Part shown: positions 172 to 63,406 of the stretch, piece by piece
Position numbering within the stretch: the first letter of the stretch is position 1
How the letters are laid out: each line of letters opens with the position of its first letter
Assembly (NCBI RefSeq): GCF_030295325.1
Contig: NZ_AP027059.1
Coordinates: 1,484,637-1,548,636, forward strand
Reading direction: 5' to 3'
From: Haliovirga abyssi
GTDB lineage: Bacteria > Fusobacteriota > Fusobacteriia > Fusobacteriales > Haliovirgaceae
DNA length: 64,000 nt
Translations under genes and position numbers: made by a program
The notes under the pieces: generated by a model
What the model saw: the letters and a program-made list of their open reading frames with translations, nothing else
What the model was told of the DNA's origin: nothing
Databases searched by the model: none

Positions 172-2013
172 CTATTTTTTCTTATTCTTCCCATTCATCA
201 AATACTCATCAATAGCTTTTGCTGCTTCATGTCCATCAGCAATACCATGAATTACATCTGGTCCTTGTACAATATCTCCTCCTGCGAACAACCAATCTAC
301 ACCTTCTACTTGTCTATTTTTTCCTATTTTTGTTATTTTTCCTCTTGTTATTCCTAGTTTTTCTTCTAATTCTTTATCCAAATATGAATAATCTGGTGAT
401 TGTCCAATTGATACATAAACTTGTGTTCCTTCTACCATTTTTACATCACTTGTATCAAATTGTGGATTAAATCTATGTTGACCATCAAATATTGATAAAC
501 ATTTAAATCCTTTTACACCTTTAATATTTCCTTTATCATCTAACATTACTTCTTGTGGCCCACATCCAAGTTGATATTTAATTCCTTCTTCCATACCTTC
601 TTCATATTCTTCTCTATCTGCTGGAAGTTGCTCCTCATTTTCAAGAGCTATTAATTTAACATCACTTTTACCATATTTTATTTCTTGCAATCTAATTAAA
701 CTTCTCGCTACATCAAATGCAACGTTTCCTCCACCTATAACTACTGCACTTTTATGTACATCAATATCTTTTATTACACCTCTAGCGAAATCTCTTACTT
801 GTGGTAAGAAATCCATTGCTAAATGTACATCTTTATGGTCTGAATTAGGTATATTAAGACCTCTTGCTCCAAAAAATCCTGTTCCTAAAAATACAACATC
901 ATATTTTGAATGTAACTCTTCAAGCTGAATATCTTTTCCAACTTGTGTATTTGTATGTATTTTTACCCCAATTTTTTCTATAAAGCTAATATCTTTATCT
1001 AATGAATAATCAGGCAATCTATATTGAGGTATTCCATATCTCATAACTCCACCTGCTAAAGGCATAGCTTCAAATATATCTACTTCATAGCCCATTGTCC
1101 TTAAGTAATATCCTGCTGAAATTCCTGCTGGTCCAGCCCCTACTATTGCTACTTTTCCTTCTCCACCTTTTGAAACATTTGCCAAAACAACTTTTTCATA
1201 ATCTTCTTCAGGCGTATTATCTACAATATACCTTTTTAGCCATCTTATAGATACTGCTTCTCCACGATTTCCCAATGCACAAGCTGTTTCACACTTGTGA
1301 GTACATATTCTTCCACATACTCCAGGTAATGGATTAGTTTTGTATAACCAGTCTACTCCTTCTTCCAGATCATCTTTCCATATAGAAAGAATATATTCTG
1401 GTATATTCATTGTAGCAGGACAAGTTTTTGTACAAATTCCACACTCTACACATCTTGAAGCCTCTGCTATTGCTGTCTCTTTTGAAAAACCTTTTACAAT
1501 TTCAATAAATGAATCTTTTCTTTCATCAGCTTCTAATCCTACCATATCATATCTTTTCAAATCCAAAAGTTCTGACACTTCATCTCTTACATAAGCATTT
1601 TCATATTTTATATCATGAATACCATTTTCTTTTGGTAAAAAATAGAAATCATCGACATCTTTTGATATATGAACATATTCTTTTGTCATTGTAAGAGAAT
1701 TTGTAGTACAAATATCTACACACAACCCACAAAATGTACATCGTCCATAATCTATAGCTGGTTTTTCTGGTTTAGAGCCATCTTCATCTGGCAATTCTTC
1801 TCTTTCTTGCATAACTATTGCATTTGTTGGACATATTTCAGAACAAGTCCCACACCCTATACATTTTTCCCAATCATTTGCATGAAATCCTCTATATCTA
1901 TCTGCTGCTTCTCTTGGATTTTCAAATATATCTTCCATGGGAATTGATATAGGTTTTTTTACTAAGTATTTCCATGCTTTTATTGGTGCAAAAAAATTCT
2001 TTTTATTTCCCAT
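172..2013 (-). CDS. Fused two-[4Fe-4S] ferredoxin (MbxN/NuoI-like) and GltD/NfnB-type NAD(P)H flavoprotein
   Basis: This 613-residue protein is the last gene of the mbx operon. Two ferredoxin motifs come first (C51-C54-C57-C61 and C92-C95-C98-C102), in the place normally taken by the electron-input subunit MbxN/MbhN/NuoI. A GltD-type domain follows, with its own cluster ligands (C188/191/194/198 and C233/237/241/245), an FAD-binding VGAGPAG motif (291-297) and a second dinucleotide motif GGGNVAFD (427-434) expected to bind NAD(P)H. Known family members (GltD, NfnB) move electrons between NAD(P)H, FAD and iron-sulfur clusters. I infer that it couples ferredoxin and NAD(P)H at the peripheral arm of the complex. 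It starts 12 bases after mbxL behind an AGGGAGGA-like site. A 'glutamate synthase small chain' label would be misleading, since no GltB lies nearby. Whether NAD or NADP is used cannot be read from the sequence. Confidence 0.88.
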   Translation of the reverse strand: MGNKKNFFAPIKAWKYLVKKPISIPMEDIFENPREAADRYRGFHANDWEKCIGCGTCSEICPTNAIVMQEREELPDEDGSKPEKPAIDYGRCTFCGLCVDICTTNSLTMTKEYVHISKDVDDFYFLPKENGIHDIKYENAYVRDEVSELLDLKRYDMVGLEADERKDSFIEIVKGFSKETAIAEASRCVECGICTKTCPATMNIPEYILSIWKDDLEEGVDWLYKTNPLPGVCGRICTHKCETACALGNRGEAVSIRWLKRYIVDNTPEEDYEKVVLANVSKGGEGKVAIVGAGPAGISAGYYLRTMGYEVDIFEAMPLAGGVMRYGIPQYRLPDYSLDKDISFIEKIGVKIHTNTQVGKDIQLEELHSKYDVVFLGTGFFGARGLNIPNSDHKDVHLAMDFLPQVRDFARGVIKDIDVHKSAVVIGGGNVAFDVARSLIRLQEIKYGKSDVKLIALENEEQLPADREEYEEGMEEGIKYQLGCGPQEVMLDDKGNIKGVKGFKCLSIFDGQHRFNPQFDTSDVKMVEGTQVYVSIGQSPDYSYLDKELEEKLGITRGKITKIGKNRQVEGVDWLFAGGDIVQGPDVIHGIADGHEAAKAIDEYLMNGKNKKK

Positions 2014-2025
2014 ATTAATTCCTCC

Positions 2026-3135
2026 CTACCTATCAATTTCAGGAGCACAAACTCCCATTGTATCTAGCCAAATTGCCACATCATCTAGTCTAGTCCCTGG
2101 CAAATATTTTTCAATTCCAAGAAGCCCTTGAGGATATGATGCTCCTCTTACTGCTATTCTATAAGGCTGTCTACTTCCATCAGAAACTATATAATATCCA
2201 TATTCTCCTCTTGAAGATTCTATATGTGAGAACACTTGACCTTTTGGTATTCTCCATTTTAATGCACTTCCAGTAGATACTTTTGCTCTAACTGGTCCAT
2301 CTTTTGGCATTTTCTCTAAAACTTGTCTAATTATTCTTATACTTTGTTTTACTTCTTTATATTTTGTTTCAAGTCTTGTATATGCATCAGAATAATTCGC
2401 CACAGGTACTTCAAATTCTACTTGATCATATCTTGCATATGGATCAACTTTTCTTATATCATAAGCCTTTCCACTTGAAGTCCTAAGCCCTATTCCAGTA
2501 ACTCCCAATTCTCTTGCTACTTCTTCTGGTAAAACTATATTATCTTTTGTCCTATTTATTATAGTAGAGTTTCTTAAAATCAGGTCTTCATATTCAGAAA
2601 GCCTTCCTTCTAATTTATCTAATACATTTTCTATCTTTTTCTCTATCCCTTTTGGCAAATCTTTTCTAACTCCGCCTACTACAATATACATATGGTATAC
2701 TCTTGCACCAGTTATCTCTTCAAATATATCTAAGATTAAATCTCTTTCTGTAATTGCCCAATTTGGACCAGTATATAGACCTGTTGGTCCTCCAATTCCT
2801 CCAAATGCCATCATATGTATCCCAATTCTTGCTAGTTCTAATATTATCATTCTTATCCAATGAGCTCTTTCAGGCACTTCAATATTTCCTAATGCTTCTG
2901 CTCCCATTGCATATACCATCTCATTAATATCAGGTTCTACCACACATATTCTTGGAATTAAAGCTATATTATTTGTCCAAAGTCTTCTTTCCATCAATTT
3001 TTCAAATCCTCTATGTAACATTCCAGGTAATGGTCTTGCTCTTTTTACTATATCTCCATCCACGTATAAATGCACACTAAAATTTCCATGCATTCCAGGA
3101 TGATTAGGCCCTAAAAACAGTTTTAATTCTCTCAT
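2026..3135 (-). CDS. mbxL: Mbx/MBS catalytic large subunit (NuoD / NiFe hydrogenase large subunit homologue), MbxL
   Basis: This 369-residue protein belongs to the NuoD / group 4 hydrogenase large-subunit family: GPNHPGMHG at the N terminus and an RxC motif near residue 62. A true hydrogenase has RxCxxC and DPCxxC to hold the NiFe centre. Here they read R-I-C64-V-V-E67 and D358-T-M360-G-V-C363, so one cysteine of each pair is kept and the other is replaced by Glu or Met. From memory, loss of half the NiFe ligands is the hallmark of MBX/MBS, the ferredoxin-linked sulfane-sulfur reductase, as opposed to the H2-evolving MBH. The start overlaps the end of mbxK by 4 bases. The protein should sit in the cytoplasmic arm next to MbxJ. 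Its actual substrate (polysulfide, or an electron relay to the fused flavoprotein) is not decided by sequence. Confidence 0.87.
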   Translation of the reverse strand: MRELKLFLGPNHPGMHGNFSVHLYVDGDIVKRARPLPGMLHRGFEKLMERRLWTNNIALIPRICVVEPDINEMVYAMGAEALGNIEVPERAHWIRMIILELARIGIHMMAFGGIGGPTGLYTGPNWAITERDLILDIFEEITGARVYHMYIVVGGVRKDLPKGIEKKIENVLDKLEGRLSEYEDLILRNSTIINRTKDNIVLPEEVARELGVTGIGLRTSSGKAYDIRKVDPYARYDQVEFEVPVANYSDAYTRLETKYKEVKQSIRIIRQVLEKMPKDGPVRAKVSTGSALKWRIPKGQVFSHIESSRGEYGYYIVSDGSRQPYRIAVRGASYPQGLLGIEKYLPGTRLDDVAIWLDTMGVCAPEIDR

Positions 3136-3644
3136 CTTTCTTCACCTTCTTTTTTAAAATCCACATTATAATCTCTTTTAGCATATTTTTTATCTGAATA
3201 TTTTTGTGGATCGAAATCTTTTCTCATTGGCGGAATATCATCCCATAATTCTAAAAACAACCCTTTTTTAGAATCTTCATTTCCTTCAAATTCAACACCA
3301 AAAAATTCATGAACATCTCTTTCATAAAATTTTGCTCCAGGAAAAATAGGTACAATTGTTTTAAACAGAGGTTTTTCTCTATCTAATCTTGTTCTTACTT
3401 GAATTGTAATTCCAGTTTCCCAATTCATCAAAATAAACACTAATTGAAACTCTTTATCATCAATAAAGTCAACGCATGTTAAAAATGTTAATTGATTCCA
3501 ACCAATAGATTTTAAATATGCTAATATTGCATGAATATCTCTACTTTCAAAATCAAAACTAACTTGTTGCTTGGTAGGCTGTTCTATATTAAGTACATTA
3601 TATTTAGATTTAATATCCTCTATTATTTTATTCATGGAATTCAT
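3132..3644 (-). CDS. mbxK: Mbx subunit K (NuoC-like 30-kDa subunit)
   Basis: This protein of about 170 residues has the NuoC signature E-R-D-V-H-E-F-F-G-V near its middle. It is a structural part of the peripheral arm, pairing with MbxL. I chose the ATG at 3644 because it stands about 9 bases after a GGGAGGTGG ribosome binding site. An upstream TTG at 3665 would overlap that site, and ATGs at 3653 and 3635 remain possible. The gene overlaps the end of mbxJ and the start of mbxL, which suggests translational coupling. NuoC-type subunits carry no cofactor, and no clustered cysteines are seen. Confidence 0.85.
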   Translation of the reverse strand: MNSMNKIIEDIKSKYNVLNIEQPTKQQVSFDFESRDIHAILAYLKSIGWNQLTFLTCVDFIDDKEFQLVFILMNWETGITIQVRTRLDREKPLFKTIVPIFPGAKFYERDVHEFFGVEFEGNEDSKKGLFLELWDDIPPMRKDFDPQKYSDKKYAKRDYNVDFKKEGEER

Positions 3645-4176
3645 CTTTAACATCCACCTCCCCAAGTGCTAACTTTTGATTTTCTTCATACCACTCTTTA
3701 TTTTCCTGATATTTTTTCCATCCATTAGCTGTTCCTGCTTTTATTTTATCCATTAAATCTTTAAAAGCATTCATTACCGCTTCTGGTCTTGGCATACATC
3801 CTGCTACAAAAACATCTACTGGAATATAGTTATCTAATTTGTTTATAGTTGAATAAGAATCATAATACACTCCTCCATTTAATGTACAAGAGCCAAATCC
3901 TATTACATATTTTGGATTTAACATTTGCTCATAACTATATATTACTCTTCTTAATGTTTTAGCACTTAAATACCCAGTTACTAATAATACATCTGATTGT
4001 CTTGGTGTTGCCATTGGTCCCATTCCTATTCTTTCCATATCAAATCTTGATGTCATTGCAGGTGGTAACTCTATGGCACCACATCCTGTACAAAAATGCA
4101 TCATCCACATTGATTTTCCTCTAAAAAAATCTCCTAATTCTTCCCATGTTTTTCTATCTTTTTCATCTAAAACCAT
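3628..4176 (-). CDS. mbxJ: Mbx subunit J (NuoB-like, proximal [4Fe-4S] cluster)
   Basis: This 182-residue protein is the NuoB / hydrogenase small-subunit homologue. The cluster ligands are visible as F-C-T-G-C-G near residue 30, G-S-C-T near 95 and A-G-C-M-P-R-P near 125, the pattern that binds the proximal (N2-equivalent) [4Fe-4S] cluster. In complex I and group 4 hydrogenases this cluster delivers electrons to the site formed with the large subunit. The start has a GGGGGTGA site 4 bases upstream and overlaps mbxM by 10 bases. Confidence 0.88.
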   Translation of the reverse strand: MVLDEKDRKTWEELGDFFRGKSMWMMHFCTGCGAIELPPAMTSRFDMERIGMGPMATPRQSDVLLVTGYLSAKTLRRVIYSYEQMLNPKYVIGFGSCTLNGGVYYDSYSTINKLDNYIPVDVFVAGCMPRPEAVMNAFKDLMDKIKAGTANGWKKYQENKEWYEENQKLALGEVDVKDEFHE

Positions 4177-5084
4177 ATTGTCACCCCCAAACCAGTAAAT
4201 ACTACAACTAAAGCTTGAACAACTGCCATAGCTAATGGTACTTTATAATAGAATTTAATTAAATCATCTATTTTAAATCTTCCTACAGCTGTTGCTATCA
4301 TTGTAGTTAATGTATATACTAAGAAATATTTTGTTAAAAATGCTATTATAGTTGGTCCTCCACCTAAAAATAGATTTACAAACAAACTCACTTCTATAAA
4401 TGTAGAAAACTCATGTTGTAAAATAAGCATTGCTAAATGTTTTCCACCATATTCTACCAATGGTCCTGATGCTATTTCCGCTGGAGCTATTGGTGTGTCA
4501 AATGGTTTTTTCCCTAACATTCCCATAAGAGAAACAAAAGCAACTATCCCACCTAATGGAAATCTAAACATATTCCAATATAGAAATCCGCCTTGTTGCA
4601 AATGAGCTATTGTTGATATAGAAGATGTTTTAAATCCAAATATAATAGTCATAACTGTTATTATAAATGGAAGCTCATATCCAACCATTTGAGTCAAAGC
4701 TCTCATTACTCCAATACTTGCCCAAGGATTTCCTGACCCAACAGCACTCATTGCCATACCAAGAGAACCTATTGCAAGCAAATAAGTTATTACAAAAAAA
4801 TTATCCATATTATCAAATGATATAATTCCTGCAACTGGCATAAATATTAATGTAGCCATAGTTCCACCTAACGCCATCATAACGCCAAAATCATATATCC
4901 AACCATGTGAGATTGGTTCTTTACTCATTGCTTTAAATATATCTAAAAATGTTTGATACCAAGGCGGTCCAAATCTTTTGTGTATTCTAGCTGTGATTTT
5001 ACGCTGAATACCATCAAGAGAAACCTGCCATGCAAATGCAAATAGCAAAAGTCCAAATCCTATAATAAATCCCATATAATTCAT
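4167..5084 (-). CDS. mbxM: Mbx subunit M (NuoH-like membrane anchor)
   Basis: This 305-residue integral membrane protein with about eight hydrophobic segments belongs to the NuoH/HyfC family (R-K-I-T-A-R-I-H-K-R-F-G-P-P near residue 30; G-K-K-P-F-D-T-P and the acidic P-A-E-I-A-S-G-P-L-V-E-Y motif near 200). In complex I this subunit joins the redox arm to the ion-pumping arm through a chain of acidic residues. It lies before mbxJ rather than after mbxL. As I recall, that order distinguishes archaeal mbx operons from mbh operons. An AGGAGG site precedes the ATG. Confidence 0.88.
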   Translation of the reverse strand: MNYMGFIIGFGLLLFAFAWQVSLDGIQRKITARIHKRFGPPWYQTFLDIFKAMSKEPISHGWIYDFGVMMALGGTMATLIFMPVAGIISFDNMDNFFVITYLLAIGSLGMAMSAVGSGNPWASIGVMRALTQMVGYELPFIITVMTIIFGFKTSSISTIAHLQQGGFLYWNMFRFPLGGIVAFVSLMGMLGKKPFDTPIAPAEIASGPLVEYGGKHLAMLILQHEFSTFIEVSLFVNLFLGGGPTIIAFLTKYFLVYTLTTMIATAVGRFKIDDLIKFYYKVPLAMAVVQALVVVFTGLGVTIWF

Positions 5085-6904
5085 GCCCTACCTCCTAACA
5101 TAAATATTACAGATACTATAACTACTATCCACAAAACCGCAACTGCTGGTCTAAAACTAAAGAATATTTTTGATACCATATCCCCTAAATCTTTTACTCT
5201 TGTTCCTATTGAAAATAAAAATTCCTCAACTTTAGGATGTTTTTCATAAAGTCTTTCAAATGGTGCATAATAATTAGATGAATAATGATATAGCTCAGGA
5301 GAATGAATAAACTCTGCTGAAGTATAAGTATCCATTAATCCAACTTTTCTTGATTTTGGTAATACCAAGAATATTATTAATGCTATTATAAATCCAAATG
5401 TAAATACGACTGACATCCAAGTTGCATTTAAATTTCCATTATTAGCTATTATATTTAATCCATCTATTTTTATTGGAATCATTCCAACTGATTTTTCTAT
5501 TTTTCCTATATATTTCAACATAACTGTTGGAAATATTCCAAAATATTGTGTTAATGCTGAGATAGCTATCATAGGTATAAGCATTAACATAGGAGCTTCT
5601 TTTACATCTTTATGTTCAGGTAACTCTTGTCCCAAAAATACTGTTGACAATGGTCTAAACACGTATAAGAATGAACCTACACTTCCAAAGAAAGCAGCCA
5701 TTGCTATAAATACCATTCCATGTTTTACTAACGATTGAAATATCAACCACTTAGATACAAATCCACCCATAGGAGGAATTCCAGCTAAAGATATTATCGC
5801 CATTAAATACACAACAAATGTAACTGGCATTTTATGAATCATTCCACCTAATTTTGACATTTTAGTTGTACCAGTTCTATATGCTACAACTGCTGCTGCT
5901 AAGAACATTGCTGAAGTTGCCATTGCATGATTAAATATATGCATTAGTCCTCCTGCCATTCCAATTGAATCATTTAATGCTATTCCTATTAATATATATC
6001 CACTATTACTTACAGTAGAATATGCTATCAATCTTTTCATATCATCTTGCTTTATGGCCATTAATGTACCTACTACAATACTTATAGCTCCTAAAATCAA
6101 TAAAATATAATTTTGATAAGGAACTCCTAATATTTTTAAACTGCTTCCAAATGCTTTTCCTGACGGCAATACAGCTACTGTTAAAAATGCTATAAATGCT
6201 CCCATTTTTACTAATCCACCTGATAATACTGGTGAAAATGTATGTGGTGCATTCCCATGCGCAAGAGGAAGCCAAATATGGAATGGAAAAATTCCAAGTT
6301 TGGTAAGTCCTGCCATTACTAATAGGAAAAACATTCCTGTAGCAAGTAATGGATCTTTTGCGACACTAGCTAACACTGCCACAGTGTCAAATGTATTATA
6401 TTTTGAATATAAAAACATTATCCCAAACAGCATTGAAAACGAACCTGCTGTACTAATTGTATAATATACAACTGATGCCTTTCTTGATTTTCCTAGAGGT
6501 ATTATGAACATAGAACCCCAAACAACTATCTCCCAAAATACAAATATTCCTAATAAGTTGCTCGAAAAAAACAATCCTATTGTTCCTGCTAATGACAACA
6601 AATATAAAAAATTATATGATGCAGGATATATTAGTCTTTCCATCCAATATATATTAAAGAACGAAGCTCCTACATAAGTTAATGTCATTACCATTGCAAA
6701 AAACCATCCATAAGGTGTTATCTTAAATTGAAAAATATTTTGACCTGAAACCACAGATAAATCTTTATAACTATACAATACAATTAATGTTATTAATGAT
6801 ATTATAACAGTTATCCATGCTCCAGATTTTTTATTTAATTTTGTGGTAAAATAAGCTGCTACTCCACCAACCATAATTAACAATATTAAATTTATTAAGC
6901 TCAT
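5081..6904 (-). CDS. mbxH': Mbx subunit H' (second NuoL/MnhD-like antiporter subunit)
   Basis: This 607-residue protein has about 14-16 hydrophobic helices and belongs to the Mrp antiporter / NuoL-NuoM-NuoN family. The signature K-L-G-I-F-P-F-H-I-W-L-P-L-A-H is near residue 205, with further membrane-embedded Lys and His residues downstream. It is longer than the neighbouring MbxH and ends in a soluble stretch (about 520-575) plus a final helix. Two adjacent antiporter subunits (H and H') separate Mbx from the one-H hydrogenase Mbh, and imply a second ion-translocation channel. It begins 15 bases after mbxH with a GGAGGGG site and overlaps mbxM by 4 bases. Confidence 0.87.
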   Translation of the reverse strand: MSLINLILLIMVGGVAAYFTTKLNKKSGAWITVIISLITLIVLYSYKDLSVVSGQNIFQFKITPYGWFFAMVMTLTYVGASFFNIYWMERLIYPASYNFLYLLSLAGTIGLFFSSNLLGIFVFWEIVVWGSMFIIPLGKSRKASVVYYTISTAGSFSMLFGIMFLYSKYNTFDTVAVLASVAKDPLLATGMFFLLVMAGLTKLGIFPFHIWLPLAHGNAPHTFSPVLSGGLVKMGAFIAFLTVAVLPSGKAFGSSLKILGVPYQNYILLILGAISIVVGTLMAIKQDDMKRLIAYSTVSNSGYILIGIALNDSIGMAGGLMHIFNHAMATSAMFLAAAVVAYRTGTTKMSKLGGMIHKMPVTFVVYLMAIISLAGIPPMGGFVSKWLIFQSLVKHGMVFIAMAAFFGSVGSFLYVFRPLSTVFLGQELPEHKDVKEAPMLMLIPMIAISALTQYFGIFPTVMLKYIGKIEKSVGMIPIKIDGLNIIANNGNLNATWMSVVFTFGFIIALIIFLVLPKSRKVGLMDTYTSAEFIHSPELYHYSSNYYAPFERLYEKHPKVEEFLFSIGTRVKDLGDMVSKIFFSFRPAVAVLWIVVIVSVIFMLGGRA

Positions 6905-6919
6905 CGATTCCCCTCCTTT

Positions 6920-8293
6920 CTATATTTTTAATAAAACTAGAGGCATTATACCCATAAATACTATTAATACTCCCAATATTCCTACACTACATTTTAAAAT
7001 AAATTCTCCATCTAAAGAAAGTGATGTTACATATTTTTCAGATGTTTCGACTCCTTCTTCTCCAGGAACCCATAATTTTGATAACAATCTAACATAATAT
7101 ACACCTTCTATTAAACTTGAGATTAATAGTACTACTGCTACCCATTCGTGATTTCCATTAAATATAGCAATTAAAACTTTTAATTTAACATAAAATCCAA
7201 AAAACATTGGAAGTCCTATTATTGACATTGCTGCTGTTGTAAATCCAAATCCCATTATTTTATGCTTATTAAATATTCCTCTTAAATCTTCTACTTTATC
7301 ACTACCTGCTTGAATAGCTAATGCTCCTGCTATAGAAAACATAATTAATTTTGCAACTGCATTATTTACAATTTGTAATATAGCTACATCATCAAGTTTC
7401 AATAAAAATAGAGTAACTATAAGACCTGCTTGAGCAATACTTGAAAATAGAAGTATCTTTCTTAACGAATTTCCTGAAAATGCTGCTGTTTCCGCTAAGA
7501 ATAAAGTCAATAATGAAATTGTTATTAATACTATTGATAAATTTTGTGATATTAATAATGTTTGAGAAAATAATCTACCAAACACAAACATTATTGCTGC
7601 TGCATATACAGAGGCAAATATCGGTCCTGATAATTTATTTGTAGAGTTATAAACTCCTTTTACCCAACCATTAAATGGAAATAATTTTGATTCTACTGCA
7701 ATTCCAGCAAATATTAAAACTATTGGTAATAATAATACTCCGCTTGTAACTCCAGGAGCATATAATTTTCCTCTCAAATCAGCCATATTAAGAGTTCCAA
7801 ATATATTATATATAATTATTATTCCAAATAGATATAAACTTGATCCAACTGTTCCAATAATCAAATAATTAAATGAATGTCTATATTTTTTAGTCATTGC
7901 AGATATTATATATCCTGATATTGAAGCAATCTCTAAGAATACAAATAAGTTAAATAGATCTCCTGTAAGTACCATTCCGTTTACAGCTGCTAAAGATACA
8001 ATTAATACAGAAGCATATTTTTTCACTTCACTATATCCCATAATAACTGCTAATGCAAAGATTATATTAACGATTAATATTCCTGTAAAACTATATCCAT
8101 CCAAAACAAGTGTAATTCCAAATGGCGGTTTCCAATTACCAATATTATAAATTCCATATTTCACCACTGATAAAAGATATAAATTTATAGCTATTGATAA
8201 AGATAATAATATTTTAGCTCCTCTTTTCCACATTACTGATATAAATGCTAACAATAGAGGAAATGCTACTAACAATACTGGACTATTCATCAT
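6920..8293 (-). CDS. mbxH: Mbx subunit H (MnhD/NuoN-like Na+/H+ antiporter subunit)
   Basis: This 457-residue polytopic membrane protein is homologous to MrpD/MnhD and MbhH. The motif E-S-K-L-F-P-F-N-G-W-V-K-G-V-Y around residue 200 holds the conserved pair of membrane glutamate/lysine residues typical of these antiporters. It follows mbxG with an 11-base overlap and uses a GGAGG site. With MbxA-G it should form the Na+/H+ exchanging half of the complex. That sodium is the coupling ion is an inference from the Mrp-like gene set. Confidence 0.87.
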   Translation of the reverse strand: MMNSPVLLVAFPLLLAFISVMWKRGAKILLSLSIAINLYLLSVVKYGIYNIGNWKPPFGITLVLDGYSFTGILIVNIIFALAVIMGYSEVKKYASVLIVSLAAVNGMVLTGDLFNLFVFLEIASISGYIISAMTKKYRHSFNYLIIGTVGSSLYLFGIIIIYNIFGTLNMADLRGKLYAPGVTSGVLLLPIVLIFAGIAVESKLFPFNGWVKGVYNSTNKLSGPIFASVYAAAIMFVFGRLFSQTLLISQNLSIVLITISLLTLFLAETAAFSGNSLRKILLFSSIAQAGLIVTLFLLKLDDVAILQIVNNAVAKLIMFSIAGALAIQAGSDKVEDLRGIFNKHKIMGFGFTTAAMSIIGLPMFFGFYVKLKVLIAIFNGNHEWVAVVLLISSLIEGVYYVRLLSKLWVPGEEGVETSEKYVTSLSLDGEFILKCSVGILGVLIVFMGIMPLVLLKI

Positions 8294-8627
8294 CTTTTAC
8301 CTCCATTTCATCCAAATCAAAAGTTCCATATTTTGCATAAATATTTTTTGCAAATGCAAGTCCTACTGCAGTTACTCCTACTCCTATTACAATTGAGGTA
8401 AGAACTAACGCTTGTGGCAATGGATCTACAAACTTTATCATATTATTATTAAATACTTTTGTAAATATAGGTGCTACTCCACCTTTTACATATCCTATAG
8501 ATATTATAAATAAATTTAATCCAACATCAAGCACATTTAAAGAAATTAATATTTTTAATAAATTTCTTTCTGTTAACATTCCATAAATTCCTATTAATAT
8601 TAATATTATAAATAAATATTGTATCAT
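8283..8627 (-). CDS. mbxG: Mbx subunit G (MnhC/NuoK-like)
   Basis: A 114-residue protein with three hydrophobic helices, matching MnhC/MrpC and NuoK: a G-I-Y-G-M-L-T-E-R-N-L-L-K-I-L-I-S turn, then an A-L-V-L-T-S-I-V-I-G-V helix near residue 80. It is a small antiporter subunit lying between MnhB-like and MnhD-like genes, exactly as in mrp and mbx operons. It overlaps its neighbours by 1 and 11 bases. Confidence 0.87.
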   Translation of the reverse strand: MIQYLFIILILIGIYGMLTERNLLKILISLNVLDVGLNLFIISIGYVKGGVAPIFTKVFNNNMIKFVDPLPQALVLTSIVIGVGVTAVGLAFAKNIYAKYGTFDLDEMEVKDDE

Positions 8628-9379
8628 TATTCCACCTCCCCTGAGATGAAGTTCACTATGATTCCTGATAATTCAGCTCCAACTTTTAATCCTACAAGTA
8701 CATATATTATAGGTATAATTCCTGCACTAAATAAATTTCCTATTGTGCCTGTTGGTAAAAAATTATACAAAAATGCTCCACCTAACAAAATACCTGTTAA
8801 TCCTATTATTACATATAAGCTTCCTGCTATTCCTTCAACTAATTTTAGCGAATGAACTTTTGCTTGGAAATCTTTATGTGATACATATAAAAGCAATACT
8901 ATACTTGCTAACATACTTCCTCCTGGAAATCCTCCTCCTGGAGTCAGATGCCCATGAACAAATATATATACTCCTACAATAAACATTAATCCCACAATTA
9001 CTTTTACTCCTGCTTTTACTATAAAATTAGGTTCTACTGCAAATTGAAGTTTTGTCCCAACTCCTCCTAAAAGAAGTGCCACTCCTAATGCAGATACAAA
9101 TAAAACTGTAACTTCTCCTAAAGTATCAAATGATCTATAATTTACAACAATAGAAGTTACCACGTTTGCTGAACCTGATTCTAAATCCTTATTTTTTCCA
9201 TATCTAATACTCTCATTGTTTCCATTTACATTTTTGTTTAAAAATTTATTAGAAACAGATTGAGAGATATTAGCTTCTCCATATTTGTTAAATTTAACTT
9301 TTGAACTGTCCAAATATAGATTACTAAAAATAAAATATCCAAATAAAATTACAATTAATAAAGCACCTATTTTTTTCAT
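8627..9379 (-). CDS. mbxF: Mbx subunit F (MnhB-like, with an N-terminal MbhE-like extension)
   Basis: This 250-residue membrane protein has a C-terminal MnhB domain from about residue 110: K-A-G-V-K-V-I-V-G-L-M-F-I-V-G-V-Y-I-F-V-H-G-H-L-T-P-G-G-G-F-P is the family hallmark. The first ~100 residues contain one N-terminal helix, a polar linker and a helix reading R-S-F-D-T-L-G-E-V-T-V-L. They resemble MbhE or the end of MnhA, so this gene appears to combine E and F of the hydrogenase-type operon. It starts directly after mbxD. Confidence 0.85.
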   Translation of the reverse strand: MKKIGALLIVILFGYFIFSNLYLDSSKVKFNKYGEANISQSVSNKFLNKNVNGNNESIRYGKNKDLESGSANVVTSIVVNYRSFDTLGEVTVLFVSALGVALLLGGVGTKLQFAVEPNFIVKAGVKVIVGLMFIVGVYIFVHGHLTPGGGFPGGSMLASIVLLLYVSHKDFQAKVHSLKLVEGIAGSLYVIIGLTGILLGGAFLYNFLPTGTIGNLFSAGIIPIIYVLVGLKVGAELSGIIVNFISGEVE

Positions 9380-9631
9380 CTATTTATCGCCCTCCTTTTT
9401 TGCAGAAAAAAGAGTAAACAGAAATAATGCTGTTGCCATTCCTGAACCAATAACAGCTTCTGTAATACCTACATCAGGTGATTTCATAAATACAAAACTA
9501 ACAACTGCAAGCATACTCATAATCGATAAATAAATTATAGAATTTAAAACTTTTTTAGATGATACTGCCATTATGCCAAATAATATTAAAATCAATCCTA
9601 TTATTATTTCAGAAATCTCAATTATCCCCAT
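9380..9631 (-). CDS. mbxD: Mbx subunit D (DUF4040 / MnhB-associated small membrane subunit)
   Basis: An 83-residue protein with three hydrophobic helices and the D-V-G-I-T-E-A-V-I-G-S-G motif of the MbhD / C-terminal MnhA family (DUF4040). I place the start at the ATG at 9631, six bases after an AGAGGTGA site. A longer reading from 9670 would put that site inside the gene. It overlaps the end of mbxC by 14 bases. It forms part of the antiporter module. Confidence 0.82.
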   Translation of the reverse strand: MGIIEISEIIIGLILILFGIMAVSSKKVLNSIIYLSIMSMLAVVSFVFMKSPDVGITEAVIGSGMATALFLFTLFSAKKEGDK

Positions 9632-9956
9632 TTTCATCACCTCTTTTATACTTGTCTTCCATCTCATCAACTACAACTTTTGCTGGTTTCACTCCAATTA
9701 AATAAGCAGCTCTTCCTATAGCAGAACTTCCTACTGGATTTGTTATAGCTAAAAATATTACTATTAATATAGTTTTTACTAACCAACTTGGATGCAAAAA
9801 TCCTACTCCTAATATAAGAGATATTGCTCCAAGAGTTGTTGCTTTTGTTCCTGCTTGAAGTCTATTATATACATCTGGCATTCTAAATATCCCAAGTCCG
9901 CCTAGGGCATAAAATAAAGCTCCTATTATTATTAAAACATAACCTATTACACTCAT
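9618..9956 (-). CDS. mbxC: Mbx subunit C (MnhG-like)
   Basis: A 112-residue membrane protein with the MnhG/MrpG signature G-G-L-G-I-F-R-M-P-D-V-Y-N-R-L-Q-A-G-T-K-A-T-T near residue 20-40 and three helices. The short C terminus is charged and cytoplasmic. It is third in the operon and overlaps mbxB by 4 bases. Confidence 0.88.
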   Translation of the reverse strand: MSVIGYVLIIIGALFYALGGLGIFRMPDVYNRLQAGTKATTLGAISLILGVGFLHPSWLVKTILIVIFLAITNPVGSSAIGRAAYLIGVKPAKVVVDEMEDKYKRGDENGDN

Positions 9957-10204
9957 TTTCTCCCCTCCAAATACCTTGCCATTAATACTGTCTCTACAAA
10001 TGCAAGTATTCCATATACTAAAGCAATATCCAAATATAGGCTATTCCTAAAGATATGTGCTAAAAATACTATTGCTCCTGTTATAATTACATTTAATGTA
10101 TCAACTCCAACTACCCTATCTGGAACTGAAGGGCCTAAGATTACCCTTAATATAGAAAAAAACACCCCAATTCCAAGTAAACTAAAAACAACTAAATTAA
10201 TCAT
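9953..10204 (-). CDS. mbxB: Mbx subunit B (MnhF-like)
   Basis: An 83-residue, three-helix protein matching MnhF/MrpF: G-P-S-V-P-D-R-V-V-G-V-D-T-L-N near residue 28-42 is the family motif. It overlaps mbxA by 4 bases and mbxC by 4 bases. Its ribosome binding site is GGAGGG. Confidence 0.88.
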   Translation of the reverse strand: MINLVVFSLLGIGVFFSILRVILGPSVPDRVVGVDTLNVIITGAIVFLAHIFRNSLYLDIALVYGILAFVETVLMARYLEGRK

Positions 10205-10686
10205 TCAAAAATCCCTCCTAACACCTTCTCAAAGGTTTGAGATATGTTTTCTTGATACTCTTTGCTTCCACTTCCTTTTACATCAATCCAATGAATATAG
10301 ATATTTTCATCATCTACATCCAAAGTTAATGTTCCTGGTGTTAAAGTAATTGAATTTGCTAAAGCTAATTTTCCAACTTCTCCTTTTAAAGATGTTTTGA
10401 TTTTTACAAATCCTGGATTAATAGGAAGTGATGGCGACAATACTCTGTATGCCACATCCAAATTGGATAATATCATTTGATAGATAAATACTGGAATGTA
10501 AACAAACACAAATTTAAATATTTTTACAATACTATCAACTCCAAATGAATAGCTGACTTGTTTATAAATTACAGCAGCCACTATAAGTGAAGCTATTCCT
10601 CCAACAACTATTTCTTGGATAGAAATTCCTGTTGCAACAATCCAAATTAACCATAGCAAAACAAACGTTGAGATAAACTTTTTCAT
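10201..10686 (-). CDS. mbxA: Mbx subunit A (MnhE-like), first gene of the operon
   Basis: This 161-residue MnhE/MrpE-family protein has two or three N-terminal helices and a soluble domain containing N-S-I-T-L-T-P-G-T-L-T-L-D-V, the diagnostic motif. It is the first gene of the 13-gene transcription unit, about 125 bases downstream of a recognisable promoter, with a GGAGGA site. The order A-B-C-D-F-G-H-H'-M-J-K-L that follows equals the mbx order I know from Thermococcales. Confidence 0.87.
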   Translation of the reverse strand: MKKFISTFVLLWLIWIVATGISIQEIVVGGIASLIVAAVIYKQVSYSFGVDSIVKIFKFVFVYIPVFIYQMILSNLDVAYRVLSPSLPINPGFVKIKTSLKGEVGKLALANSITLTPGTLTLDVDDENIYIHWIDVKGSGSKEYQENISQTFEKVLGGIFE

Positions 10687-11034: not shown

Positions 11035-12393
11035 TTATTTTTTACACCCTTTTCTTAAAACTATACATTCTGCTGCTTTTATTATTGGATATTTTGTAGG
11101 TGCAGAACTAAGCAACGGATGAGTTCCTATTTGAGTTGTATATAACTCAGTAACTGTCATTCTATTTTGAATAGCTAATCCAAGAACATTTATTAGTTCT
11201 CCAGCACTTTCTCCTCCAATTACTTCTGCCCCAATTATTATTTCAGAATCTTTTGCTACTATTAATTTTACAAATTGTTTTTTTGTTCCAGGTAATGTTC
11301 CAGGATGTTTGTCAACACCTTCATTTCTACCTACCATTACTTCAAATCCACTTCTTTTAGCTTCTTCTTCTGTAACTCCTGCTGCTCCAAATCCAATTTC
11401 TCCAATTGCTGTTGAAAATATTGCTACTGTTCCTATAAAAGTTCTTACAATAGATAGGTTATATAAATTCATTCCTGCCATTCTTGCCTCTGCTGCTGCT
11501 GTTGAAGCAAGCATAATTGGTGTAGATTTTCTTGTAATAAAATCTACTTTTGCTGCACAATCTCCAACTGCAAGTACATCTTTATCATCTGTTCTTAAAT
11601 AACTATCTACTCTTATTGCTCCTAATTTATTTAATTCTAATCCAGAGTCTGCTGCCAATTTAGTATTTGGTCTATATCCCATTGAAAGCACTACTGCATC
11701 AGCTTCTATTCTTTCACCATTTTCCAATACTACTGCTTCTACTTTCCCATCTCCAACTATCTCTTTTACAGCTACTCCTGTTTTTAAACTCACTCCTCTT
11801 TTTACCAATATTTCTTGAGCTCTTTCTGCTATTTCTACATCAAATGCTCTTCCTAATATTGTAGGTAATACTTCTACTAAAGTTACATTTTTTCCTATTT
11901 TATTTAATTCATCTGAAACTTCTACTCCAATAAATCCAGCTCCAATTACAACTATTTTTTTCATTGAGTTAAATTTTTCTTTTATTGCATCAAGATAAAT
12001 TTTATCTTTAGGAATTGAGAATACATTTTCTAAATCTGAACCTTTTAACCAAGTTGGTTTGTATGGAGTTGAACCAGTTGCAAATACTAATTTATCATAT
12101 TGAAATTCTTCTCCTGAAGCAGTTTTTAAAACTTTTTCTTCTCTATTCACATCTACAACTTCATCCTGTTTAAATTCTACTCCAGCTTTTTTTAATCCAC
12201 CTAAAGGGATAACATCTTTATCGCTAGAATCTAATGTCCCAAAAATGTATGGAATTCCACAAGGAACTAAAGCATCTTTCTCTTTTCTAATCAATAATAC
12301 ACTTTTATCAGGGTAATGTGCTTTCCCTGTCATTGCTGAAACTAATCCTGCTGCACTTCCACCTATTACAATTACATCAAATTTTTTCATCAT
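11035..12393 (-). CDS. CoA-disulfide reductase / NAD(P)H sulfur oxidoreductase-type flavoprotein
   Basis: This 452-residue FAD- and NAD(P)H-binding protein belongs to the single-cysteine pyridine nucleotide-disulfide oxidoreductase family. An FAD motif GGSAAG (11-16) is followed by V-P-C45-G-I-P-Y, the redox-active cysteine that forms a mixed disulfide with CoA in CoA-disulfide reductases. A second dinucleotide motif, G-A-G-F-I-G-V-E, lies near residue 150, and the C-terminal dimerisation domain includes G-T-H-P-L-L-S-S-A-P-T near 430. Known members include CoA-disulfide reductases, NADH oxidases and the CoA-dependent sulfur reductase NSR that works beside the Mbx complex in Pyrococcus. Its position directly upstream of mbx, with its own promoter and terminator, supports a sulfur-reducing role here, but sequence alone cannot exclude an NADH oxidase. 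The start is the first of two adjacent ATGs after GGAGG. Confidence 0.83.
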   Translation of the reverse strand: MMKKFDVIVIGGSAAGLVSAMTGKAHYPDKSVLLIRKEKDALVPCGIPYIFGTLDSSDKDVIPLGGLKKAGVEFKQDEVVDVNREEKVLKTASGEEFQYDKLVFATGSTPYKPTWLKGSDLENVFSIPKDKIYLDAIKEKFNSMKKIVVIGAGFIGVEVSDELNKIGKNVTLVEVLPTILGRAFDVEIAERAQEILVKRGVSLKTGVAVKEIVGDGKVEAVVLENGERIEADAVVLSMGYRPNTKLAADSGLELNKLGAIRVDSYLRTDDKDVLAVGDCAAKVDFITRKSTPIMLASTAAAEARMAGMNLYNLSIVRTFIGTVAIFSTAIGEIGFGAAGVTEEEAKRSGFEVMVGRNEGVDKHPGTLPGTKKQFVKLIVAKDSEIIIGAEVIGGESAGELINVLGLAIQNRMTVTELYTTQIGTHPLLSSAPTKYPIIKAAECIVLRKGCKK

Positions 12394-15685: not shown

Positions 15686-15725
15686 GTAAGTTAATTTTTT
15701 AACAATTTATAACAAAAAATAAAAA

Positions 15726-15803
15726 TGGAGCCGCCTATCCGATTCGAACGGATGACCTGCTGATTACAAGTCAGCTGCTCTGGCCAAACTGAGCTAAGGC
15801 GGC
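15726..15803 (-). tRNA. tRNA-Thr (anticodon UGU)
   Basis: The minus strand folds into a complete cloverleaf: acceptor GCCGCCT/AGGCGGC, D stem GCTC/GAGC, anticodon stem GCTGA/TCAGC with loop CTTGTAA, T arm ATCCG-TTCGAAT-CGGAT. Discriminator T and an encoded CCA follow. Last of a three-tRNA cluster. Confidence 0.97.
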
Positions 15804-15831
15804 TCATCATTATTAAATTGCTATTATTGTA

Positions 15832-15907
15832 TGGTGCCCAGACGCGGAATCGAACCACGGACACGGGGATTTTCAGTCCCCTGCTCTACCGACTGAGCTA
15901 TCTGGGC
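15832..15907 (-). tRNA. tRNA-Phe (anticodon GAA)
   Basis: A 76-base cloverleaf with acceptor GCCCAGA/TCTGGGC, anticodon stem GGGGA/TCCCC with loop CTGAAAA, T loop TTCGATT and encoded CCA after discriminator A. Middle gene of the cluster. Confidence 0.97.
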
Positions 15908-15917
15908 ATATACTTTA

Positions 15918-15995
15918 TGGCGGGGCTGACGAGGGTCGAACTCGCGACCTCTGGCGTGACAGGCCAGCGCTCTAACCAAACTGAGCTACAACCCC
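15918..15995 (-). tRNA. tRNA-Asp (anticodon GUC)
   Basis: A 78-base cloverleaf with acceptor GGGGTTG/CAGCCCC (one G-U pair), anticodon stem CTGGC/GCCAG with loop CTGTCAC, T loop TTCGACC, discriminator G (typical for Asp) and encoded CCA. First gene of the cluster after the promoter. Confidence 0.97.
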
Positions 15996-16009
15996 TTTAA
16001 GCGAAAATG

Positions 16010-16038
16010 AGTATACCATACTATTTCTTTCTTGTCAA
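16010..16038 (-). promoter_or_regulatory. Promoter of the tRNA Asp-Phe-Thr cluster
   Basis: TTGACA (16033-16038), 17 bases, then TATACT (16010-16015) on the minus strand, about 15 bases before the mature tRNA-Asp. No clear terminator follows tRNA-Thr. Confidence 0.8.
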
Positions 16039-16056
16039 GCATTTTTATAGAAAATA

Positions 16057-16113
16057 TTTTCAGCACAAAGAAAGAAGAACGCAAAGGTACACAAAGAAAA
16101 AAATTTGAAACCA
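16057..16113 (+). repeat. Dispersed CAGCACAAAG repeat, copy 1
   Basis: This non-coding element reads TTTTCAGCACAAAG, then several A/G-rich CAAAG-type heptads, then ACACAAAGAAAAAAATT. The same element recurs at 18653-18706 and 42064-42114 (opposite orientation) and 49267-49330 (same orientation), always between genes. The rest of the 570-base gap up to 16567 carries the palindromes listed separately and no supported gene. Confidence 0.75.
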
Positions 16114-16213
16114 CTATTATATCTATGATTTCGCCAATAAATCTTTTGATAACATTGGAATATATCCTTTTTTCACTATATCTTTTCCATGTTGTAATTT
16201 TTCATCCATCGTA

Positions 16214-16235
16214 GAGACACGATTTATCGTGTCTC
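16214..16235. repeat. Perfect 10-bp inverted repeat (REP-like palindrome)
   Basis: GAGACACGAT and its exact complement ATCGTGTCTC are separated by TT. A shorter relative, CACGAT-AA-ATCGTG, lies at 16445-16458. Together with the palindrome at 16484-16509 they look like members of one dispersed family flanked by GTAGAGAC/GTCTCTAC. Confidence 0.8.
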
Positions 16236-16483
16236 CTGTTCTCGTGTCTATGTTATCACGTCTCCATTTATCATCTTTTATTTTAATTTATTTTATTTTT
16301 TGTGTTTTATGATTCAACCACAAAAACTATGTTTCTGATTAATTTCCTAAAATTACTCTTGCTCAAACCATTGGTTCTATTAGACTGATTTTTTGAAAAA
16401 ATTAAAAAATACATTTTTGTGGATAAATCATTTTATTAAAAAAACACGATAAATCGTGCTTCTACATATCATTTTTGTTGTTA

Positions 16484-16509
16484 TAGAGACGTAGCATGCT
16501 ACGTCTCTA
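16484..16509. repeat. 26-bp perfect palindrome
   Basis: TAGAGACGTAGCA and its exact reverse complement meet with no loop (centre between 16496 and 16497). No T-tract follows on either strand, so it is not a standard terminator. It lies downstream of the patatin gene. Confidence 0.85.
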
Positions 16510-16567
16510 CTGTTAATTATTTCAATTTTTTATATACTTCTGAACTTTAACCCATTTTGCTCCCAAA

Positions 16568-17497
16568 TCATATAATTAATTTTTTTATTTCATCTATATT
16601 TTTGTCAGCTTCTTTATATCCCTCTTCTATAATCTTTTCCCCTTTAAAAAAATTTAATTGCATATATTTTAAAACATCAGGTTTCAAAAATATATCTGCT
16701 TCTCTTTCTGTCCTTTTTAAATCTCCCATAAATAATATATTTAAAAAATTTTCAATAACTAATATTTTTTCTTTTATCCCCTCATTTTTTGTCAAACTAA
16801 ACTTACTTTTTTTTAAAATTGTCTTCAAAATTTCATTGTTTGCTATTTCATCTATAAAAATTTTCCCTGGATTTAGAATTAATTCTTCTCCATCTTTTAA
16901 GAGTTCTTCATCAACTACTTTATCATCTTTATTAATTTTATCTCTAAAACCAATAGCTATTATTTTTTCAGCTCCATATTTTTTAGCTATATGTATTGGC
17001 AAAGGATCATATACTCCTCCATCAGTTAAGTATCGTCCTCCTCTTTTTACCGGCTTAAATATCAAAGGAATACTTATACTTGCTCTTACCCCTTTATATA
17101 GCTTACCACTACTTATTATAACTTCTTCTCCTGTTAAGAAATCCGTTGCATTTATATAAAATGGTATTTTGCAATCAGAAAAATTTCTTCCTCTTGTTAA
17201 TATTTTAATAAACTCTTCTGCATATTTACCTTTTAACAACCCATTTTTTCTCTCTTTTGTAAAATCTAACAATAAGGAATAATTAAAATTTGAAGCAATT
17301 CCTTCTATATATTTAATTGGCATTCCAATTGCATAAAGTGAACCTATTATAGAACCAATACTACTTCCCACTATTAAATCAGGTTTTATTCCTTCCTCTT
17401 CTAATCTTTTTATTACTCCAATATGTGACAATCCCCATGCACTTCCACCACTTAAAACCAATCCCAATTTTTTTCGTGATTCTTTCAAAATTATCAC
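16568..17497 (-). CDS. Patatin-like phospholipase (RssA/YchK family)
   Basis: A 309-residue patatin-family serine hydrolase. The oxyanion-hole motif L-S-G-G-S-A-W-G near residues 15-22, the nucleophile elbow G-S-S46-I-G (44-48) and the catalytic Asp in T-D-G-G-V near 155 are all present, so it should be an active acyl hydrolase. There is no signal peptide, so it should be cytoplasmic or membrane-associated. It is last in a run that starts with tyrA 34 bases upstream. Natural lipid substrate unknown. Confidence 0.9.
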   Translation of the reverse strand: MIILKESRKKLGLVLSGGSAWGLSHIGVIKRLEEEGIKPDLIVGSSIGSIIGSLYAIGMPIKYIEGIASNFNYSLLLDFTKERKNGLLKGKYAEEFIKILTRGRNFSDCKIPFYINATDFLTGEEVIISSGKLYKGVRASISIPLIFKPVKRGGRYLTDGGVYDPLPIHIAKKYGAEKIIAIGFRDKINKDDKVVDEELLKDGEELILNPGKIFIDEIANNEILKTILKKSKFSLTKNEGIKEKILVIENFLNILFMGDLKRTEREADIFLKPDVLKYMQLNFFKGEKIIEEGYKEADKNIDEIKKLII

Positions 17498-17531
17498 CTC
17501 TTTATATTATCTTCAACTTATCTTTTTAATC

Positions 17532-18629
17532 TTACTTTAATTCTTTTACTTCAAATCCAGCATTTTTTAAAACCTCTTCTGCTTTCTCATTTTCTTTATT
17601 AACATCAAATCCAACTCTTATGCTTCCACCATAGTTTTCTCTAATATGTAATACCTCTATATCTTTTATATTTATATTATTTCTACCTAATATTTTAGTT
17701 ATATCTCCAATTATACCTGGTTTATCTGGTACAAAAACTATAAGCTCTATCATTGGCGACAATATACCTTTTCTTCTTTGAGGAATTTTATCTCTTACCT
17801 CTTTTCCATTTCTAAAAAGTGCAGTCAACATCTCTTCATTGCCATTTTTTATATTCTCTTCAAAATTTGACAACTCTTTTTTAAATTTATCTATTGCATA
17901 TAAAATTTTATCTCTATTGGTCAAACATATATCCCTCCACATTTCTGGGCTCCCTGCAGCTATTCTAGTAGTGTCTCTAAATCCTCCTGCAGCAAGAGAT
18001 AATATAATATTTTGATTATTATTGCTAATATCATTGGCTGTATTTACTAAACTACTTGCAAGAATATGAGGCAAATGACTTATAGAAGCTACTGCTAAAT
18101 CATGAATTTCAACATCTAACTCCAACAGTGTTGAATCAAGTTTTTTTACCATCTCTTTTACTTTTTCAAATGCAGATAAATTTGTATTTTTTGTTTTTGT
18201 TAATACATATATTGCATTTTCAAATAGATATGGATCCAAAGCTTCAACTCCTGTCTTTTCAGAACCAGCCATTGGATGTCCACCTACAAAATATATATCT
18301 TTTGGCAATATATTTTCTATTTCCTTTGTTATATATTCTTTTGTACTTCCAACATCAGTTATAATTGCACCTTTTTTCAAATATGGCAATGCTCTTTTTA
18401 CTAAATTCGGCATTAATTTTACTGGAACTGATAGCACTAAGATATCTATTTCACTTAATCTATCATCTAGCTCTATCATATATTCATCTATCGCATTAAG
18501 AGAAACCGCCTTTTCAAGTTTAGAGCTATTTCTTCCAATTCCTATAACTTTATCCGACCATTTTTTCTTTTTTAAAATATAGCCGATACTACCACCTAAT
18601 AATCCAACTCCCCAAATTGCAACTTTCAT
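17532..18629 (-). CDS. tyrA: Prephenate dehydrogenase with C-terminal ACT domain
   Basis: A 365-residue enzyme of tyrosine biosynthesis that oxidatively decarboxylates prephenate to 4-hydroxyphenylpyruvate. The NAD(P)-binding G-V-G-L-L-G-G-S-I-G motif begins at residue 7. G-G-H-P-M-A-G-S-E-K-T-G near 115-126 and S-H-L-P-H-I near 190 are family active-site motifs. An ACT domain (about 290-365, F-V-P-D-K-P-G-I-I-G-D-I-T) suggests tyrosine feedback control. No other aromatic genes are nearby, so it is isolated from the rest of the pathway. A dispersed repeat occupies the gap upstream. Confidence 0.94.
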   Translation of the reverse strand: MKVAIWGVGLLGGSIGYILKKKKWSDKVIGIGRNSSKLEKAVSLNAIDEYMIELDDRLSEIDILVLSVPVKLMPNLVKRALPYLKKGAIITDVGSTKEYITKEIENILPKDIYFVGGHPMAGSEKTGVEALDPYLFENAIYVLTKTKNTNLSAFEKVKEMVKKLDSTLLELDVEIHDLAVASISHLPHILASSLVNTANDISNNNQNIILSLAAGGFRDTTRIAAGSPEMWRDICLTNRDKILYAIDKFKKELSNFEENIKNGNEEMLTALFRNGKEVRDKIPQRRKGILSPMIELIVFVPDKPGIIGDITKILGRNNINIKDIEVLHIRENYGGSIRVGFDVNKENEKAEEVLKNAGFEVKELK

Positions 18630-18652
18630 AAATTCACCTCTTTTGTAATTTT

Positions 18653-18706
18653 AAAATTTTTCTTTGTGTGACTTTGCGTTCTTCTTTCTTTGTGCTGAAA
18701 TTATTT
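18653..18706 (-). repeat. Dispersed CAGCACAAAG repeat, copy 2
   Basis: On the minus strand this reads AATTTCAGCACAAAG, AAAGAAGAACGCAAAG and CACACAAAGAAAAATTTT, nearly identical to copy 1 but inverted in orientation. It sits between the YibE/F gene and tyrA. Confidence 0.75.
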
Positions 18707-38091: not shown

Positions 38092-38121
38092 TTCCACCCA
38101 CTCCTCTTATTTTTTATGAAA

Positions 38122-49178: not shown

Positions 49179-49225
49179 ATTAAAATATCCCTTCACGAAA
49201 TCTTTTTATGATAATTTATATCTTA

Positions 49226-61744: not shown

Positions 61745-62236
61745 CTAATTTATAAAAAAATTCATATCAAATTTTATATTAAAATCTTTACTATATATAT
61801 GTAATTCATATTCACCACTATTTATAGCTTCTTCTGTATTACTTTCATTCATCCATAAATCTGAAAAAACAATTTTACTATATCCATTTATTTTTAATTT
61901 TCTTTTTCCAGAAGCATTCTTTTCTAAAATATCTTTTTTATATATAATCTTATCCCCTTTTGTAATTATAAAATTAAAGCTGTTTTCTTTTTTCAAAATA
62001 AAATATTTTGGCTTTTTACTTCTATTTTTAATTTCTACTTTTATAAGTAATGCCTCATCTTTATCTATTTTATATTTACTAATAATTGCACTGTATTTCA
62101 CATTATTTAAAATTAACTCCTGCTTTGTAGGCATCTTTTTTTGAAAATAATAATTTAATAACAAAATAAGTCCAAATATAAAAATTAAATCAAGAATAGT
62201 TATAATGTTTGATTTTTTTTTAAAAAAACTATTCAT
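61745..62236 (-). CDS. Membrane-anchored BsuPI-like domain protein
   Basis: A 163-residue protein with one N-terminal helix (I-L-D-L-I-F-I-F-G-L-I-L-L-L) and an extracytoplasmic beta domain. The order L-L-I-K-V-E-I-K-N-R-S-K-K-P...F-N-F-I-I-T-K-G-D-K-I-I-Y, then I-N-S-G-E-Y-E-L-H-I-Y resembles the intracellular proteinase inhibitor BsuPI fold, though here it is anchored outside. The match is by pattern only. The start shares TAATG with alr. Confidence 0.65.
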   Translation of the reverse strand: MNSFFKKKSNIITILDLIFIFGLILLLNYYFQKKMPTKQELILNNVKYSAIISKYKIDKDEALLIKVEIKNRSKKPKYFILKKENSFNFIITKGDKIIYKKDILEKNASGKRKLKINGYSKIVFSDLWMNESNTEEAINSGEYELHIYSKDFNIKFDMNFFIN

Positions 62237-63354: not shown

Positions 63355-63406
63355 ATATACAAATGCCACCTTTTCTTATACTTTAATCGACTCAAAAAAA
63401 GTAATT

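Follow-up and report, generated by a model that had tools for sequence, protein, structure and literature searches.

The sulfane reductase MBS of Pyrococcus furiosus has been presented as a ferredoxin-fed evolutionary intermediate between hydrogenases and complex I. Electrons from ferredoxin are taken up at the MbsN subunit, and the reduction of polysulfide has been ascribed to an open three-Cys site (PMC7684303). In bacteria, the 13-subunit MBX of Thermotoga maritima was published as an MBS homologue, with nsr and mbxA both induced by S0 (PMC9431562). For Thermoanaerobacter, mbx has been proposed to be an Rnf analogue with ferredoxin:NAD(P) oxidoreductase activity, and is reported to alternate with Rnf (PMC3608648). 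Two groups of Fe-S flavoproteins are also relevant in this context: NfnB/NfnL, in which the E126C exchange of NfnL uncouples the bifurcation branches (PMC9503767), and DsrL, in which the loss of a YRR motif goes along with NAD(H) use in assays and separates NAD(H)-using DsrL-1 from NADP(H)-using DsrL-2 (PMC7596348).

Here, we analyzed a stretch of 64,000 nucleotides from Haliovirga abyssi (the window), in which the N subunit of an mbx operon is fused to an NfnB-like flavoprotein. The fusion is a real, conserved and apparently uncharacterized variant of a known complex, and its normal form in two bacterial phyla. An earlier note on this DNA had seen in it the best candidate for an undescribed system, which proved correct in part. 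The fusion architecture is covered by a curated NCBIfam entry (NF010590/PRK13984), and both the T. maritima MBX (PMC9431562) and a role for mbx in Thermoanaerobacter (PMC3608648) are published, while the fused subunit itself appears to be uncharacterized. Neither the biochemistry of any fused member nor a description of the fused subunit was found in the open literature that the search covered.

The fusion gene closes a 13-gene mbx operon

The fusion gene is the last in a series of 13 co-directed, closely packed genes that run from 10686 to 172 on the (-) strand (Table 1). Their order is identical to that of Pyrococcus mbsABCDEGHH'MJKLN, with the fusion occupying the N position—in agreement with the earlier note, which had taken it for the MbxN equivalent and last gene of an mbx operon. 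Within a single chain, Pfam domains were assigned as a 4Fe-4S dicluster domain (aa 47-105), a Fer4_20/DPD domain II (aa 166-270) and Pyr_redox_2 (aa 287-589), accompanied by the FAD motif VGAGPAG (~291-297) and the NAD(P) motif GGGNVA (427-432). The four Cys sets of the ORF (C51-54-57-61, C92-95-98-102, C188-191-194-198 and C233-237-241-245) contain 16 cluster residues, all of them invariant among 98 distinct family members. These domain assignments and the invariant Cys residues bear out the original reading of a ferredoxin and a flavoprotein in one chain, with four Cys sets and FAD and NAD(P) motifs, and confirm the architecture as a NuoI/MbsN-type dicluster ferredoxin plus an NfnB/GltD-like Fe-S flavoprotein encoded by one intact gene.

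Table 1. Positions in the window of the mbx operon, its terminal fusion gene and the flavoprotein gene upstream.
Feature	Coordinates	Strand	Remarks
Fusion subunit, MbxN/MbsN + NfnB-like flavoprotein	172..2013	(-)	613 aa, uninterrupted ORF
Regions of the fusion subunit			Dicluster ferredoxin aa ~1-125; linker ~126-160; Fe-S domain ~163-270; FAD/NAD module ~285-610
MbxL / NuoD-like catalytic-site subunit	2026..3135	(-)	Best solved match MbsL 6u8y_L
MbxK / NuoC-like	3132..3665	(-)	
MbxJ / NuoB-like	3628..4176	(-)	FCTGCG...GSC...GC three-Cys proximal cluster motif as MbsJ
MbxM / NuoH-like	4167..5084	(-)	
MbxH' / second antiporter-like subunit	5081..6904	(-)	607 aa
MbxH / MrpD-like	6920..8293	(-)	
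MbxG / MrpC-like	8283..8627	(-)	
MbxE / MrpB + MbhE-like	8627..9379	(-)	
MbxD / MrpA C-terminal-like (DUF4040)	9380..9670	(-)	
MbxC / MrpG-like	9618..9956	(-)	
MbxB / MrpF-like	9953..10204	(-)	Position + tblastn match to gene at equal place in relatives
MbxA / MrpE-like	10201..10686	(-)	
CoA-disulfide reductase / NAD(P)H sulfur oxidoreductase (NSR)-family flavoprotein	11035..12393	(-)	348 bp upstream of operon

Two genes run together, or an assembly or frameshift artefact, are ruled out by the end-to-end match of the window protein to NF010590/PRK13984 (positions 8-609 of 611; E 2e-276; 918 bits, slightly below the curated cut-off of 946) and by the many genomes in which homologues of full length occur in an unchanged gene order. 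This 611-aa family has the same full-length architecture and is named 'putative oxidoreductase', with neither a function nor a complex attached to it. A degenerate window copy is likewise ruled out: the protein departs from its relatives at 4 of 103 nearly invariant positions, no cluster Cys among them, and has no deletions. The AlphaFold model of the fusion was good for the C-terminal half only (about aa 155-536 and parts of the end), the best matches being NfnL and NfnB; the N-terminal domain was poorly modeled (pLDDT about 30), from an input with only two full-length rows.

Elsewhere in the window, two adjacent, very long ORFs at 33022-38097 and 38122-41907 (-), of 1691 and 1261 aa, have lipoprotein-like signal sequences and the look of large surface proteins. 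Two alanine racemase-like genes lie 13 kb apart, at 48078-49196 and 62236-63369 (-).

Signatures of an MBS-type complex and its sulfur context

The J and L subunits resemble their MBS counterparts more closely than those of complex I. MbxJ scored 227 bits against MbsJ (6u8y_J) versus 122 bits against the best complex I-type subunit, and MbxL reached 308 bits against MbsL versus 229 bits against complex I. Where complex I has the tandem CC of the N2 motif, MbxJ has CG (within FCTGCG, common to MbsJ), and this three-Cys form of the proximal cluster—with the first ligand Cys followed by Gly rather than a tandem CC—was found in 71/71 scored loci. MbxL, closest to MbsL, is without the full four-Cys [NiFe] set, and its C64 and C363 are the equivalents of MbsL C85/C385. 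The positions of MbsJ C25 and MbsL C85/C385 vary within the fusion-bearing family, which fits the finding that those Cys residues are dispensable (PMC7684303). From these sequence comparisons, the MBS hallmarks of the peripheral arm point to polysulfide as the terminal acceptor, and not to a simple transfer from ferredoxin to NAD(P).

The NSR-family gene upstream of the operon probably has its own transcript in the window. At one locus (L131), a homologue of it separates mbxA from mbxB within the operon; others were found just upstream of the operon at a second locus (L139) and about 4 kb downstream in convergent orientation at two more (L119 and L120); such NSR-mbx linkage occurs in a minority of loci. 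These neighbours, together with the S0 induction reported for T. maritima, favour a sulfur role of the complex, as supportive evidence rather than proof.

Distribution, synteny and origin of the fusion

In Thermotogota (set assembled via a Pseudothermotoga MAG), 55 of 103 genomes scored above the cut-off and 69/103 had a full-length, divergent or contig-cut fusion; in Cloacimonadota (set assembled via a Cloacimonetes MAG), the fusion was present in about 40 of 118 genomes. The neighbourhood survey comprised 80 stretches, 79 of them with a full-length or contig-cut fusion from these two phyla. In every one of the 79, a NuoD/MbxL gene lies directly upstream of the fusion, on the same strand and 3-172 bp away, and the whole mrpEFGABC-D-D'-NuoH-B-C-D series precedes it wherever the contig reaches. 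This synteny rules out a random or mobile fusion; homologous fusions mostly away from mbx genes, which the earlier note had named as a refutation of its reading, are not what the survey shows. In the reverse direction, MbxL-type genes occur in 70 Thermotogota genomes, 69 of which have the fusion, and no Cloacimonadota MbxL-type gene without a fusion was seen where the downstream flank was readable. One Thermotogota genome (G120; L187:3001-6047) encodes MbxN as an unfused protein of 164 aa, has NfnA and NfnB genes behind it and keeps the neighbouring peripheral-arm genes—an apparent loss of the flavoprotein half with retention of the complex. Nine genomes related to G120, in a divergent Thermotogota clade, have an NfnB gene roughly 900 bp downstream of the fusion.

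The phylum of the window is not Thermotogota, and a survey of 98 genomes from that phylum revealed no further full-length fusion copy. In a maximum-likelihood tree, the window fusion nevertheless falls within a clade of Thermotogota (10-row group, 96*); the neighbouring NuoD-like protein is 85% identical to its counterpart in a Thermotogota genome. On the strength of this placement and identity, the window copy was probably acquired by transfer from Thermotogota.

Two variations on the operon were also encountered. Antiporter subunits H and H' are joined as one 1048-aa ORF in a Cloacimonetes MAG (L034:3570-6716), and at L131:14492-19204 and L137 (oriented) 15686-18663 the mbx operon is followed immediately by a second set of complex I-like genes (~30% identical; NuoH, B, C and D types).

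Cluster ligands and cofactor motif of the flavoprotein half

Every Cys ligand listed for T. maritima NfnB (C39, C42, C47, C51, C90, C96 and C100; PMC7596348) is present in the window fusion. At the proximal cluster, however, the Glu ligand (E117 in T. maritima NfnB; E126 in P. furiosus NfnL) is replaced by Lys260. Lys occupies this position in 98/98 distinct fusions, whereas Glu was found in 7/7 NfnB controls. The Lys260 codon lies at window 1234-1236, and C233 is a candidate to complete the proximal cluster instead of Glu. Since the E126C exchange uncouples the branches of NfnL (PMC9503767), the uniform change from Glu to Lys suggests, by analogy, that the flavoprotein module of the fusions acts as a plain, non-bifurcating conduit.

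A second difference concerns the motif for the NADPH 2'-phosphate, YRR (Y310-R311-R312), which reads A456-L457-E458 in the window fusion. The xLE form (S/C/A-L-E) occurs in 60 of the 98 fusions, all in one clade (99*) that includes the window; YRR is found in 36, and two were unreadable. YRR is present in two fusion clades and in all NfnB controls. Moreover, two Cloacimonadota genomes (G240 and G294) each have one YRR-type and one xLE-type operon. Because YRR is lost in the window enzyme as it is in NAD(H)-using DsrL (PMC7596348), the xLE clade is predicted, by comparison with DsrL and NfnB, to use NADH and the YRR clades NADPH.

Proposed electron path and competing readings

The reading that we favour, with moderate confidence, is that the fusion serves as the N subunit of an ion-pumping MBS/MBX-type sulfane reductase with its own NADH or NADPH input via the covalent NfnB-like module. 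In the mechanism that we infer, NADH (in the window clade) or NADPH (in the YRR clades) would bind the FAD module, from which electrons would pass to the pair of [4Fe-4S] clusters in the Fer4_20 domain and then to the second pair, in the NuoI-like N-terminal domain. These would in turn reduce the proximal three-Cys cluster in MbxJ, the site at which polysulfide would be reduced, and redox-driven changes at this cluster would drive the Mrp-like membrane arm and thereby pumping. Some points speak against this reading. Genome G120 is without the flavoprotein domain yet has the complex, and the potential drop from NADH to polysulfide is small and leaves little for pumping, so that ferredoxin may still be a main donor. 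Reduced ferredoxin may thus share the electron wire of the fusion complex.

The main rival is a confurcating, dual-input sulfane reductase, in which NAD(P)H and reduced ferredoxin are co-oxidized, as in the HydABC hydrogenase, and polysulfide is reduced with enough energy to pump; it would solve the problem that NADH by itself offers a small potential drop. MBS does accept ferredoxin at MbsN (PMC7684303), and NfnB stands behind the operon in the divergent Thermotogota clade (nine fusion genomes and G120, with NfnA shown in G120). However, the branch-coupling Glu of Nfn is the very residue that is Lys in all fusions, and the other operons are without a same-strand NfnB-like partner downstream, and we regard this arrangement as unlikely.

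Also improbable, in our estimation, is an ion-pumping ferredoxin:NAD(P)+ oxidoreductase analogous to Rnf, with ferredoxin electrons entering at the NuoI-like clusters and leaving via FAD to NAD(P)+. Both sites lie in one chain, P. furiosus Mbx was long held to be a ferredoxin:NADP oxidoreductase, and one clade of Thermoanaerobacter has mbx in place of Rnf (PMC3608648; PMC4596419). Such a path would bypass the site in MbxJ/MbxL that couples redox chemistry to pumping, yet the MBS-specific three-Cys form is kept in every scored locus. Rnf is, in addition, co-present with the fusion: RnfC was detected in the window genome (600 bits), in 68 of the 69 fusion-bearing Thermotogota genomes and in 29 of the 34 Thermotogota genomes without the fusion. 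This co-occurrence rules out the complex as an Rnf replacement; it does not take the place of Rnf here, unlike in Thermoanaerobacter (PMC3608648), and the earlier suggestion of an alternative to Rnf is, if a substitute is meant, not supported.

Finally, a mainly structural or regulatory flavoprotein half—an NAD(P)H sensor in a complex run by ferredoxin like P. furiosus MBS—is very improbable, for although G120 keeps the neighbouring peripheral-arm genes with its unfused N subunit, inert domains decay, and here all cluster Cys residues and FAD/NAD motifs are retained across two phyla, with a cofactor motif that changed coherently in one clade.

Implications for complex I-like respiration

Building on the sulfane reductase with its own NAD(P)H input, we tentatively put forward a broader proposal, to which we give less credence. 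Bacterial MBX may represent a separate complex I-like respiratory class with its own N module, i.e., an NfnB-type NADH/NADPH dehydrogenase fused to the NuoI subunit and independent of NuoEFG. Members of this class may oxidize NAD(P)H together with ferredoxin on sulfur, and NADH and NADPH versions would run side by side in some Cloacimonadota. If bacterial relatives of MBS have an NAD(P)H input domain of their own, pyridine-nucleotide modules were acquired on more than one occasion, and from different components, in the evolution of complex I-like machines. The electron accounting of sulfur-reducing Thermotogota, whose MBX is assumed to run on ferredoxin, would then change as well. What is new here is the invariance of the 16 cluster Cys residues in 98 fusions, the exchange of Glu for Lys in 98/98 and the split between YRR and xLE by clade; the YRR/SLE split and the invariant Lys offer direct and cheap handles for tests.

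Comparison with described systems

The closest described system, P. furiosus MBS (PDB 6u8y; PMC7684303), is alike in its 13 genes and their order, the three-Cys cluster of J, the C85/C385 equivalents of L and the Mrp-like membrane arm. Its MbsN, however, is a 208-aa ferredoxin-type subunit, to which the window N subunit adds a further ~450-aa NAD(P)H flavoprotein. Complex I (NDH-1) differs by its tandem-Cys N2 motif, absent from the window MbxJ. The T. maritima MBX is alike as a sulfur-induced, 13-subunit MBS homologue, and was treated in the same study as ferredoxin-driven, with the flavoprotein module unmentioned (PMC9431562).

On the flavoprotein side, NfnB/NfnL (T. maritima 4ylf; P. furiosus 5jca/5vj7) share the Fer4_20, FAD and NAD(P) domains, all Cys ligands and the fold. 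They differ from the fusions in the proximal-cluster Glu (Lys in all fusions) and in YRR (xLE in the window clade); the window protein is, moreover, joined to a complex I-type ferredoxin, and no NfnA partner gene is present in the window operon. DsrL (PMC7596348) likewise unites an Fe-S flavoprotein of the GltD/NfnB type with a dicluster ferredoxin domain, and its NADH and NADPH types are split by YRR as well. In contrast to the window fusion, the partner of DsrL is the DsrAB sulfite reductase and its ferredoxin domain is C-terminal.
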